Below the pieces are notes generated by a model. That model saw nothing but the letters and a program-made list of their open reading frames with translations, did no database searches and was not told where the DNA came from. Of a stretch of DNA of 64,000 bases, positions 18,674 through 23,141 are shown one piece after another. A program made the translations under genes and the position numbers. Numbering within the stretch: the stretch's first letter is position 1; the number at the start of each line of letters is the position of its first letter. Source of the DNA: Microscillaceae bacterium (GTDB taxonomy: Bacteria; Bacteroidota; Bacteroidia; Cytophagales; Microscillaceae); the NCBI GenBank assembly GCA_025054775.1, contig JANWZA010000014.1, forward strand, positions 1 through 64,000, read 5' to 3'.

Positions 18674-19300
18674 TTACATTTCAATTTTGTTAATAATCTT
18701 ATCTACTATTCCATACTCTACGGCTTCTTTTGCGTTCATCCAGTAGTCGCGGTCAAAATCTTTTATGATTTTTTCCAAGGGTTGTCCACAGTTTTGGGCT
18801 AGAATTCTTGCCCCGAGTTCTTTGGTTTTAGCAATTTGGCGAGCATTGATTTCAATATCAATAGCTCTTCCCTGGAAATAGCCTCCGATGCTAGGTTGAT
18901 GTATCATTACTTCACCATGCGGAAAAATAGCGCGTTTGCCTTTTGCTCCACCTGAAAGCAAAATAGAACCCATAGAGGCGGCTAGACCCATACACACCGT
19001 AGCCACTGGTGAGGAGATCATTTGCATGGTATCGTAGATTACCATGCCAGAGGTGATTACACCACCTGGGCTGTTGATATAAAAAGTGATCTCCTCTCCT
19101 GGTTTTTCTGCTTCCAAGTAGAGCAAACGGTTCACTACCTCTCTGGCGGAGCCGTCATGTACAGGTCCCCACAAGAATACTTTGCGTTGCTCTAAAAATT
19201 TTTTGTTAAATAAGCGCGCATCTGTCATAAAATCAAAGATTTCCCTCAGGGGATTATCCTCCTCCTCGTCTTCAAGGCAAGTTTCAAAATATTTTCTCAT
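18674..19300 (-). CDS. clpP: ATP-dependent Clp protease proteolytic subunit, paralogue 1
   Basis: A 208-residue ClpP with a complete catalytic triad: Ser109 in GLAASMGS, His134 in VMIHQPS and an Asp in DFDRDYWM at 183-185. The FYINSPGGVITSG oxyanion region is intact. ClpP forms barrel-shaped proteases with ClpX or ClpA/C. It lies 73 bases downstream of a second clpP on the same strand and is followed by a terminator. No clpX gene is present in the window, so the partner ATPase is encoded elsewhere. Confidence 0.92.
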   Translation of the reverse strand: MRKYFETCLEDEEEDNPLREIFDFMTDARLFNKKFLEQRKVFLWGPVHDGSAREVVNRLLYLEAEKPGEEITFYINSPGGVITSGMVIYDTMQMISSPVATVCMGLAASMGSILLSGGAKGKRAIFPHGEVMIHQPSIGGYFQGRAIDIEINARQIAKTKELGARILAQNCGQPLEKIIKDFDRDYWMNAKEAVEYGIVDKIINKIEM

Positions 19301-19373
19301 AGTTGAGCATGATAGAAATGTATGAAAGATTTTTTTGAAAGTTTTTTTCCTAAGTGTAATAAAAAGAAATAAT

Positions 19374-20111
19374 TTATCTAACTAAAACTTCGTCAATTAG
19401 CCCATATTCTTTGGCTTGTGGTGAGGTCATCCAAAAGTCCCGGTCAGCATCTTGGGCTATTTGGTCAGCGCTTTTTTGTGTATGTTTGCTCAAAATTTGG
19501 TAAATTTCATTTTTAAGCGTAACAATTTGCCTGGCAGTAATCTCAATATCAGAACTTTGCCCTCCTGCAGCGCCCATGGGTTGGTGTATCATGATACGAG
19601 CATGTTGGAGAGCAGAGCGTTTATTTCTTGCCCCACCTGCTAGTAAGACTGCTGCCATAGAAGCGGCAAGTCCTGTGCAGATGCTTACTACATCGGGTTT
19701 TACATATTGCATGGTATCATAAATGCCTAGCCCTGCATAGATAGAACCTCCAGGACTGTTGATATAGAGCAAAATATCTTTTTTAGAGTCCGTAGATTCT
19801 AAAAAGAGTAGTTGGGCTGTAACGATGTTGGCAATATAGTCATCAATAGCTGTACCAAGAAAGATAATTCTATCCATCATGAGGCGTGAAAATACATCAA
19901 TTTCGCGGAAGTTGGTAGGGCGCTCCTCAATAACGGCGCGCGTCATATTTTGAAATTGGTGTATGTATTTATCAAATACTAAACTGCTAATACCTCTGCC
20001 TTTGATAGCAAAGCTACGAAATTCCTTTTGCATTTTTCGCTCGCTTTGAAGGTCGGTATAATCGTATTGACTTACGATGTCATGCATAGGGTTTGAGATG
20101 TTTTGGTTCAT
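19374..20111 (-). CDS. clpP: ATP-dependent Clp protease proteolytic subunit, paralogue 2
   Basis: A 245-residue ClpP, about 40 residues longer at the N-terminus than paralogue 1. The triad is complete: Ser151 in GLAASMAA, His176 in IMIHQPM and an Asp in DADRDFWM near 223. The N-terminal 40 residues (LQSERKMQKEFRSFAI) are charged and could be a propeptide or control the axial pore. The adjacent paralogue suggests hetero-oligomeric ClpP barrels, as in organisms with two ClpPs; that is inference. The ATG at 20111 is used; MHDIV at residue 9 is an alternative start. Confidence 0.92.
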   Translation of the reverse strand: MNQNISNPMHDIVSQYDYTDLQSERKMQKEFRSFAIKGRGISSLVFDKYIHQFQNMTRAVIEERPTNFREIDVFSRLMMDRIIFLGTAIDDYIANIVTAQLLFLESTDSKKDILLYINSPGGSIYAGLGIYDTMQYVKPDVVSICTGLAASMAAVLLAGGARNKRSALQHARIMIHQPMGAAGGQSSDIEITARQIVTLKNEIYQILSKHTQKSADQIAQDADRDFWMTSPQAKEYGLIDEVLVR

Positions 20112-20405: not shown

Positions 20406-23141
20406 CTAATAGCTACTTACTTTTTGTTTTGCTTTTTGCAAGGCATATTCTAGAATTTTATCGATAAAATGATAGGGTTTGTAATGGTTAATTGCCGCTT
20501 GGTGAAAAATACACGTAGCGGGTGTCATACCAGGAAGTGAATTAACCTCAATAATGTAGACTTCTACGCGTTTGTCGGCATAAATTTTCACAAAAGCATC
20601 AATACGGGCATAGCCCTCAATGTTGAGAATTTTGGCTACTTTAAGCAGTTCTTTTTTTACAATTTGGCTAATTCGCTCATTTTCAGTGGCATCAGAGCTA
20701 TACACTGCGGGAGTAATGTTTTGTCCTTCACCTGCTAAAAACTTCTCTTCCAAACTTAATACTTCGCCGAGGGCTAAGGCTTCTGAAGGTTCAAAAATTT
20801 CATACTCAATACCTTGGGGCGTATAGTGCGTAAGTAATCCACCTGTAATTTCTAGAAAGTGTACGGCTTCGCCTTTTTCTATCAAAGTTTCTATCAAAAA
20901 GGCATTTTTCATAGGAAACTCCTCATTAGGTTTCAGTTTGAGTGCTTGGGCTTCTTTGAGAGGGATTTCAGGTGAATTACGAAACATAATTTTAGCGTAA
21001 GCTATCAACTCGCCTCGGGATTTAATTTTTTTCACTGCTGAACTGCACCCCTCATCAACAGGTTTAGCTATGCAAGGATAGGAGAAACGCATTTCTAATT
21101 CCTCGATCAAAGCATCAAAACGATTCTCCAAGTCATGTTGGTAAACCATCATGTGTTGGGCGACTTTTAGCCCGTGTTTTGCTAAAATTTCATTAGTTTC
21201 AAACTTATTGATAGTAATTTTAGAAGTTTGTGCTGAGGAGCCGTTGTAAGGAATTTGGTAGCTATCTAATAGAGATTGCAGTTCTCCGTCTTCGCCTGGT
21301 CTGCCGTGAAGGGCAATAAATACTACATCGGCTAAATTTTTTAGATCTTTTAGGCTAATTTTTTGTGGTTCGTTTATGCTCTGTCCTGCAAAATATTGTG
21401 TAATAGGTTGTGCCTCTTGTCGGATTTGTTGCATGTACTTTCCTGTGGCACTGTTTTTATATTGCTCAAAGGCAAGTATTTTTTCTCTAATGTCGTCGGC
21501 ATTGTCTTTGAGCATCATGTTTATGGGCAACAGGTATAGTTCAAAAGGGGTACTTTCAGGGGCGAATACTTCGCGGCTCAAAAAGACAGGAAAAGGAGCG
21601 TATTTGTTAGAAGAGGCTAATTTTTCAAACACGTTGCGTCCACTTTCCATAGAGATATGTCTTTCTGTGGAATAGCCTCCCATGATAACTGCTACTCGGA
21701 TTTTGCTTTTTACTTCTTGTTGCAAATTTTCTATTTTTTGAGCTAAGAGTGAAAGTTTATTTTGCAAGGTTTGAACTTTTTTGCCCTCACGCAAGCGCGC
21801 CACAAGGCTTGTATAGAGAACATAAGTAAGAAATTGTGAAGGATTTAGCCCAATTTCTGCTGCTTGGTGAAAAAAGAAGGACGAGGGCAGCATGCCTGAG
21901 GTAGTATTCGGGTCATTCAAATAAATTTTGCCCTCTTGGGTGATAAATCCATCAATGCGGGCATAAACTTGGGCAAAAATAGCTTGAAATAGACGGCAAC
22001 ATTCTTGACGAATTTGCTCTATTTGCTCTATGGGCAATTCTATGGGCGTAACCTTTCGGCTAGTGCCAGGCAAATATTTAGAGCGATAATCAAACACATC
22101 TTGAAATTTGCGAATCTCAGTAGGTGGAAGGGCAAAAGGTTTTCCTTCAAAGTCTTCTATCACAATACACGAAAACTCTTTGCCTTCAATCCATTGCTCT
22201 ATCAGGACCACCTCTTCGGTATTTTCGGCAAGCAAATGTACCGAACTTTTGAAGGAAACCTCTTTGAAAATCTTATCTAAAAATTCCCACAATTTTTCAG
22301 GGGTGTAAATAACTTGGTCATATTCAGATACATAAACAGGAAACCCTAATCCTTCACGAATATCAGTAAATTGATTGATAAAATTCTCTTTGTCTATTGA
22401 GGAGAGGTTTCGCCAAAATTGCGGTGTAATTTCTTGCACAAAAAAACTTTTATGAACAGCTTGCTTAAATGTGTGCCAATTATCCTCTTTTACAATACTA
22501 ATCCCAATGGATGAGCCTTGTTTGGGAGACTTGACTACCAAAGGTAAGCCGATTTCTTGTTTTATGTCTTCAAAAAGTTCTTTTTTATTATTAGTTAAAA
22601 GCCAAGTTTTTTTATCTAAAATTCTACTTTTGGGGCGTAGGAATCCATTGTTAGGTAGCCATTGTGTTTGTACATGCTTATCAATGCCAATAGCAGAGGG
22701 CAAAATTCCTGCTCCTGTATAAGGGATATTGTACCATTCTAACAATCCTTGAATATTACCGTCTTCACCATAGCTACCGTGCAGGCACAAAAAAGCCATA
22801 TCAAACAAAGTAGCGAATTCGTGCGGATAAATGGGCCTGCCCACTTCACGCATTATTGCCTCTAATTGTGCTGTTTCAAGCGAAAGCAAAGACTCTACAT
22901 AAATTTGAAACTTCTGTTTTTGATTAGCTTGCAGTTGGTAGCTAATAGGTGGGTAGAAGTCGCGTATCGTGCCTTTGTAAAGATATTGCCATTCTAATAA
23001 AATAAAATTGCCCAAACTATCCACAAAAATAGGAACGGGCTCAAAAAGTTGCTTATTTAGGTTGTCATACACAGTGCGACCTCCTGCAAAGGATACTTCT
23101 CGCTCTCGAGATTGTCCTCCGAAAAAAATACCGATTCTCAT
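20406..23141 (-). CDS. ddl: Tandem-duplicated D-alanine--D-alanine ligase (two fused Ddl modules)
   Basis: A 911-residue protein in which two complete Ddl modules follow one another; normal Ddl has about 310-360 residues. Module 1 (1-455) begins MRIGIFFGGQSREREVS, has LHGSYGEDGNIQGLLE, an omega-loop VFDYRSKYLPG, YARIDG and ends with NDPNTTSGM near 417. Module 2 (about 482-911) begins RVAVIMGGYSTERHIS, has LHGRPGEDGELQSLLD, YARIDA and EVNSLPGMTPATC. A coiled linker (LQNKLSLLAQKIENLQQEV) joins them. Ddl makes the D-Ala-D-Ala end of peptidoglycan precursors from two D-Ala and ATP. In module 1 the metal-binding Glu of the Glu-x-Asn pair is Asp; in module 2 it is Glu. The gene has its own promoter almost at the start codon. 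Confidence 0.88.
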   Translation of the reverse strand: MRIGIFFGGQSREREVSFAGGRTVYDNLNKQLFEPVPIFVDSLGNFILLEWQYLYKGTIRDFYPPISYQLQANQKQKFQIYVESLLSLETAQLEAIMREVGRPIYPHEFATLFDMAFLCLHGSYGEDGNIQGLLEWYNIPYTGAGILPSAIGIDKHVQTQWLPNNGFLRPKSRILDKKTWLLTNNKKELFEDIKQEIGLPLVVKSPKQGSSIGISIVKEDNWHTFKQAVHKSFFVQEITPQFWRNLSSIDKENFINQFTDIREGLGFPVYVSEYDQVIYTPEKLWEFLDKIFKEVSFKSSVHLLAENTEEVVLIEQWIEGKEFSCIVIEDFEGKPFALPPTEIRKFQDVFDYRSKYLPGTSRKVTPIELPIEQIEQIRQECCRLFQAIFAQVYARIDGFITQEGKIYLNDPNTTSGMLPSSFFFHQAAEIGLNPSQFLTYVLYTSLVARLREGKKVQTLQNKLSLLAQKIENLQQEVKSKIRVAVIMGGYSTERHISMESGRNVFEKLASSNKYAPFPVFLSREVFAPESTPFELYLLPINMMLKDNADDIREKILAFEQYKNSATGKYMQQIRQEAQPITQYFAGQSINEPQKISLKDLKNLADVVFIALHGRPGEDGELQSLLDSYQIPYNGSSAQTSKITINKFETNEILAKHGLKVAQHMMVYQHDLENRFDALIEELEMRFSYPCIAKPVDEGCSSAVKKIKSRGELIAYAKIMFRNSPEIPLKEAQALKLKPNEEFPMKNAFLIETLIEKGEAVHFLEITGGLLTHYTPQGIEYEIFEPSEALALGEVLSLEEKFLAGEGQNITPAVYSSDATENERISQIVKKELLKVAKILNIEGYARIDAFVKIYADKRVEVYIIEVNSLPGMTPATCIFHQAAINHYKPYHFIDKILEYALQKAKQKVSSY

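Follow-up and report, generated by a model that had tools for sequence, protein, structure and literature searches.

Two diverged D-alanine–D-alanine ligase modules joined in one chain in a Microscillaceae bacterium and its relatives

The question raised by the locus

D-alanine–D-alanine ligase (Ddl), an essential enzyme familiar from textbooks and a target of drugs, is described as a protein of one module that forms a dimer with itself. What two such modules might do within one chain is the question raised by an intact open reading frame of 911 amino acids with an ATG start, located on the minus strand (20406-23141) of the window, i.e., the whole 64,000-nucleotide stretch of contig JANWZA010000014.1 from a Microscillaceae bacterium that was analysed here. 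With middling confidence, and arguing from sequence comparisons, we take it to be a tandem fusion, ancient and inherited vertically, of two ligases that would have divided the work, module 1 being the housekeeping enzyme and module 2 a competent ligase with an altered preference for its second substrate.

The fused gene and its predicted structure

That two complete Ddl modules lie in this one protein, as the initial annotation had proposed, is borne out by Pfam, which finds the N-terminal (PF01820) and C-terminal (PF07478) Ddl domains twice each, as well as by NCBIfam, which likewise finds two complete modules; the minus-strand orientation is added here. Module 1 comprises residues 1-455 (21777-23141) and module 2 residues 479-911 (20409-21707), and they are joined by a variable linker of residues 456-478 (21708-21776) that contains two TTG codons and no ATG. 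All the motifs claimed for both halves are present, namely SREREVS in module 1 and STERHIS in module 2, YARID in each half, and the Asn-x-x-x-Gly-Met motifs N412-TTSGM and N867-SLPGM, respectively.

The AlphaFold2 model of the whole protein (pLDDT 79.9, pTM 0.80) predicts the linker as a single helix, residues 456-479. Module 1 of the model matches the Thermus Ddl structure 6u1d (Z 33.9, 319 residues, 2.2 A). As a structure search with the whole model covered module 1 only, module 2 was modelled and searched on its own, and it matches the Coxiella Ddl structure 3tqt (Z 31.8, 324 residues, 3.1 A). Together with the module-wise alignment to Escherichia coli DdlB, by which both halves are Ddl-like, the predicted ATP-grasp fold in each indicates that, in sequence as in predicted structure, either half is a full Ddl module.

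When the whole 3.0-Mb source genome was scanned with PF07478, no further Ddl was found, the other matches falling largely on the ATP-grasp portion of the profile, as they should for unrelated members of the ATP-grasp enzymes; the fused gene is thus the sole Ddl. Directly downstream and on the same strand lie two ClpP paralogues of 208 and 245 amino acids (18674-20111). Among the relatives, a gene for Mrp adjoins several fusions and one truncated form, and ClpP is found near one split module 1. The source genome also has two MurF matches, one in an 824-amino-acid frame shared with alanine racemase (G000:C5:30190-32541) and one in a frame of its own (G000:C13:7375-8604).

Module-specific residues at the active site

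For residue comparisons, 41 fusions were aligned and numbered according to E. coli DdlB, the sequence of which was checked against PDB 1iov. Among these, module 1 keeps E15, R16, E17, H63, K97, K144, S150, S151, E180, E187, K215, Y216 (Tyr356 in the source protein, codon 22074-22076), R255, D257, N272, G276 and S281. With its Ddl N-domain and ATP-grasp C-domain and with E15, S150, Y216, R255, D257, N272 and S281 in place throughout, it has the marks of a D-Ala-D-Ala ligase except for the Glu at position 270. The replacement of this Glu by Asp in the E-x-N pair, already noticed in the single sequence (Asp410, codon 21912-21914), proves to be clade-wide, as it is found in 41 of 41 first modules and in all eight truncated forms described below. 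As known Ddl have Glu at position 270 with a conservation of 98-100% (PMC6899670), this fixed Asp is unusual.

Module 2 keeps E15, R16, H63, K97, K144, S151, E180, E187, K215, R255, D257, E270, N272 and G276 in the 41 fusions and so has, besides the Ddl fold, the ATP-binding, metal-binding and catalytic residues; Glu187 was read from the alignment of the fusions, as the protein alignment of family f21 (see below) is out of register there. Leu210 and Leu212 are always present. Four changes are fixed in 41 of 41, namely E17H (His495, codon 21657-21659), S150C (Cys699, codon 21045-21047), Y216F and S281T. An assignment of the His to the substrate-binding position Glu15 was rejected, Glu15 being kept and the changed residue being Glu17. 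Phe801, at the Tyr216 position, lies in the omega-loop LSLEEKFLAGEG (20724-20759), and the altered loop that had been pointed out in this protein is likewise a property of the whole clade.

Ser150 and Tyr216 of DdlB are conserved in ligases that make only D-Ala-D-Ala, and DdlB gains a weak D-Ala-D-Lac activity when they are changed to Ala and Phe, respectively (PMC7691350). In lactic acid bacteria, Phe versus Tyr at the Tyr216 site sets depsipeptide versus dipeptide activity (PMC5996685). Module 2 lacks both marks of the D-Ala-D-Ala-only ligases and shares the Phe with the Phe-type D-Ala:D-Lac ligases; by these patterns, therefore, one module of the fusion is of the Tyr/Ser type and the other of the Phe/Cys type. 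Of the earlier suggestion that one module has become regulatory or has changed its specificity, the second part thus gains support for module 2, as Cys and Phe replace Ser150 and Tyr216 in all 41 fusions.

Distribution of the fusion

Among 57 relatives searched, about 33 have the two modules fused end to end, eight have a truncated form, two have split genes and eight an ordinary single Ddl. In a sample of the order comprising 156 genomes, each at least 90% complete, 134 match strongly, of which about 85 are fused, 34 truncated, all of them in the families f2, f4 and f11, nine split and one with module 2 only; for both sets, the architectures were counted by hand in the result rows. Two diverged Ddl modules in one chain are hence the arrangement in about half the genomes sampled from the order. 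The occurrence of the same fusion in dozens of genomes, sought as a check on the first observation, also disposes of an assembly artefact. The order is most likely Cytophagales; Microscillaceae UBA8158 is an example of a named relative with the fused form and Bernardetia of one with the truncated form. A few fusions are also found in records named Flavobacteriales and Chitinophagales, and one lies beyond the order, in another genome of its class. No description of a tandem Ddl fusion was found in a search of open-licence PMC papers, and in one case, a truncated form, the database annotation reads plainly 'D-alanine--D-alanine ligase'.

Two genomes of over 9 Mb from the source's own family (G003 and G012) have an ordinary single Ddl in place of the fusion, which has probably been replaced there. 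In another genome (G230), a chain of 1197 amino acids (L095:2251-5844) contains both Ddl modules followed by a hydrophobic stretch resembling a transmembrane segment and by two PASTA domains, and joins a cytoplasmic Ddl to a part that is likely to bind peptidoglycan.

Phylogeny and constraint

In an unrooted maximum-likelihood tree of 90 modules, including 40 single Ddls, all second modules form a clade (100/100), as do the first modules with the truncated forms (100/100), and both clades together are set apart from the single Ddls (97/92). This topology fits one duplication followed by fusion; as the tree is unrooted, a fusion of two old paralogues would be the alternative. In both module clades a fused protein (G027) branches deepest, and the split genes of family f21, other genera of which are still fused, therefore arose by fission. 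The truncated forms also form a single clade (99/99), and therefore the active site of module 2 was most simply lost once, the loss being inherited by three families.

The two modules are equally constrained: mean pairwise identity is 56% for module 1 and 58% for module 2 as compared to 21% for the linker, with 99 and 89 invariant columns in the two modules, respectively, and in 70% of genome pairs the higher conservation is that of module 2. As its tip lengths are also similar to those of module 1, module 2 is under full constraint wherever it is kept. Its stem branch is long (1.68 vs 0.9), and a long stem with similar tips is what a shift with subsequent constraint leaves behind.

Natural losses of either module

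The truncated forms, which account for every strongly matching sampled member of the families f2, f4 and f11, consist of a complete module 1 with Asp270 and a remnant of module 2, in which the glycine loop and the whole ATP-grasp part are lost and about 110-170 residues of the N-terminal domain are kept, with an LP(V/I)(N/S)xxxK motif region of 36% identity between families. A PF07478 scan found no other Ddl-like protein in seven of eight such genomes; in the eighth (G024) there is L098, a C-terminal Ddl-like ATP-grasp match with no match to the Ddl N-domain. Module 1 with Asp270 must therefore be the working Ddl of these lineages, and since it is their only recognisable one, Asp270 does not abolish its function. 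A module 1 inactivated by Asp270 was accordingly rejected as unlikely, and the part of the earlier suggestion that would make module 1 the regulatory half is not supported. Conversely, the loss of the module 2 active site implies that its product is dispensable in these three families. One truncated Ddl, that of Bernardetia sp. Wsw4-3y2 (L113, NZ_CP147018.1:82783-84654), is encoded on a replicon of 601,782 bases that its record calls a plasmid.

A different situation is found in f21, an endosymbiont-like family with genomes of 0.7-2.7 Mb that is probably Amoebophilaceae; Cardinium and Amoebophilus have been reported to make peptidoglycan (PMC3486910). Six genomes of f21 have the fusion, 12 have the modules split into distant genes, one has module 2 only and two have neither module; one of the latter (G351) lacks MurF and Alr too. 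The genome with module 2 as its only Ddl (G350; 0.7 Mb, 96% complete) has kept MurF and Alr, and on the MnmG side, where its nearest sampled relative G349 has module 1, it has other open reading frames. It thus appears to have lost module 1, as judged from one lineage and one incomplete genome. G349 itself was rejected as a second such case, its module 1 being an intact frame of 409 amino acids. In both genomes (L131:1522-2742 in G349, L132:1492-2748 in G350) module 2 has Ser150 and Asp17, with Phe216 kept, as opposed to Cys at position 150 in every other module 2 examined. This return of Ser150 suggests that Cys150 matters, and the survival of G350 with no other Ddl suggests that D-Ala-D-Ala can come from module 2. 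With 12 genomes encoding it separately from module 1 and one having no other Ddl, module 2 is useful outside the fusion as well.

In two split-gene genomes (L059, L061) the conserved His63 of module 1 is replaced by Asn or Tyr, and Gly276 of their module 2 by Ala. Several f21 genomes in which module 2 is kept have an Alr fusion with a degraded or missing MurF part.

What the second module may do

If the two ligases have divided the work, module 1 would be the housekeeping D-Ala-D-Ala ligase, as its conserved residues and the lineages in which it alone has stayed catalytic suggest, and module 2 a second, catalytically competent ATP-grasp ligase; the activity of each is what we infer from these patterns. 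Using the conserved Lys, Glu, Asp, Asn and Arg, module 2 would convert D-Ala (or a near relative) to the acyl-phosphate and pass it to a second substrate differing from, or broader than, D-Ala, because Cys and Phe take the place of Ser and Tyr at the two positions that determine the acceptor. That the product is then a second dipeptide or depsipeptide other than D-Ala-D-Ala, which would provide much of a Gram-negative order with a built-in two-product ligase that may vary the ends of the peptidoglycan stems, is a tentative extension and rather doubtful. D-lactate in particular, put forward at the outset as a possible substrate, finds no support in the genome context. Although Phe216 and a residue other than Ser150 are shared with the ligases of lactic acid bacteria, the source genome (best LdhA/VanH-like match E 1.8e-31) and the split-gene genomes tested have no clear LdhA, which is found in eight of 24 genomes with an intact fusion and in four of eight with a truncated form and across 40 genomes shows no association with an intact module 2. 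Moreover, no M15-type D,D-peptidase was found in the source genome, the rest of the module 2 loop is unlike the canonical one, and the 911-amino-acid protein scores far below the cut-offs of the NCBIfam Van models. A Phe-type D-Ala:D-Lac ligase is therefore a very improbable identity for module 2.

Two further explanations were considered. Module 2 might be weakly or not at all catalytic, binding ATP and D-Ala and holding or regulating module 1 as one half of a pseudo-homodimer; Ddl is usually a dimer (PMC6899670), the whole-protein model has a pTM of 0.80, and a scaffolding or regulatory role is suggested by the truncated lineages, which retain part of the module 2 N-domain despite the lost active site. 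However, module 2 retains every ATP-binding, metal-binding and catalytic residue, for which a pseudoenzyme would have no use. Two classical dimer-interface positions (taken from PMC6899670) are also changed in module 2, Gly74 to K/Q/A and Ala92 to Q/S, in a region missing from module 2 of the truncated forms, and in f21 the modules persist as distant genes, with one genome having module 2 alone. These observations disfavour a simple built-in classical dimer and speak against a strict need for one, so that the pseudo-homodimer is a possible but not a probable explanation. Alternatively, both modules might be ordinary D-Ala-D-Ala ligases, the fusion serving as a built-in dimer or a double dosage and the changes being neutral to specificity. 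Each module is apparently the sole Ddl somewhere, and fold and chemistry residues are conserved in both. On the other hand, module-specific changes are fixed at specificity positions in many families, the module 2 stem is long, and Ser150 has returned in the module 2 of G349 and G350, which makes two ordinary ligases an unlikely description. The division of work between a housekeeping module 1 and a module 2 of altered second-substrate preference is hence retained as the best explanation.

Nature has in effect carried out the domain-removal experiment, as three families have lost the module 2 active site, one lineage has split the modules and one genome appears to lack module 1. Natural proteins therefore allow direct tests of what S150, Y216 and E270 do, and of the part played by the second module.

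Comparison with known systems

Each half of the fusion shares its fold and its ATP-binding, metal-binding and catalytic residues with the single-module ligases DdlA and DdlB (TIGR01205, PF01820 plus PF07478), with module 1 being of the same Tyr/Ser type. It differs from them by having two modules per chain, by Asp270 in module 1 and Cys150/Phe216 in module 2, and by the grouping of both modules apart from the sampled single Ddls. LmDdl2 (1ehi), the Phe-type Ddl of vancomycin-resistant lactic acid bacteria, shares Phe216 with module 2 only, the model of which matches it with Z 30.1; yet LmDdl2 has Ala at position 150 (PMC7691350) where module 2 has Cys, and the fusion has no genomic link to D-lactate. 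With the VanA, VanC and VanG ligases the fusion has superfamily and fold in common, but not the scores required by the curated Van models nor, in the source genome, an accompanying M15-type peptidase. A parallel in architecture is provided by the MurC-Ddl bifunctional protein (NF011171), in which a Ddl is likewise part of a larger fused cell-wall enzyme, whereas the partner here is a second Ddl and the score is 164 against a cut-off of 1015.
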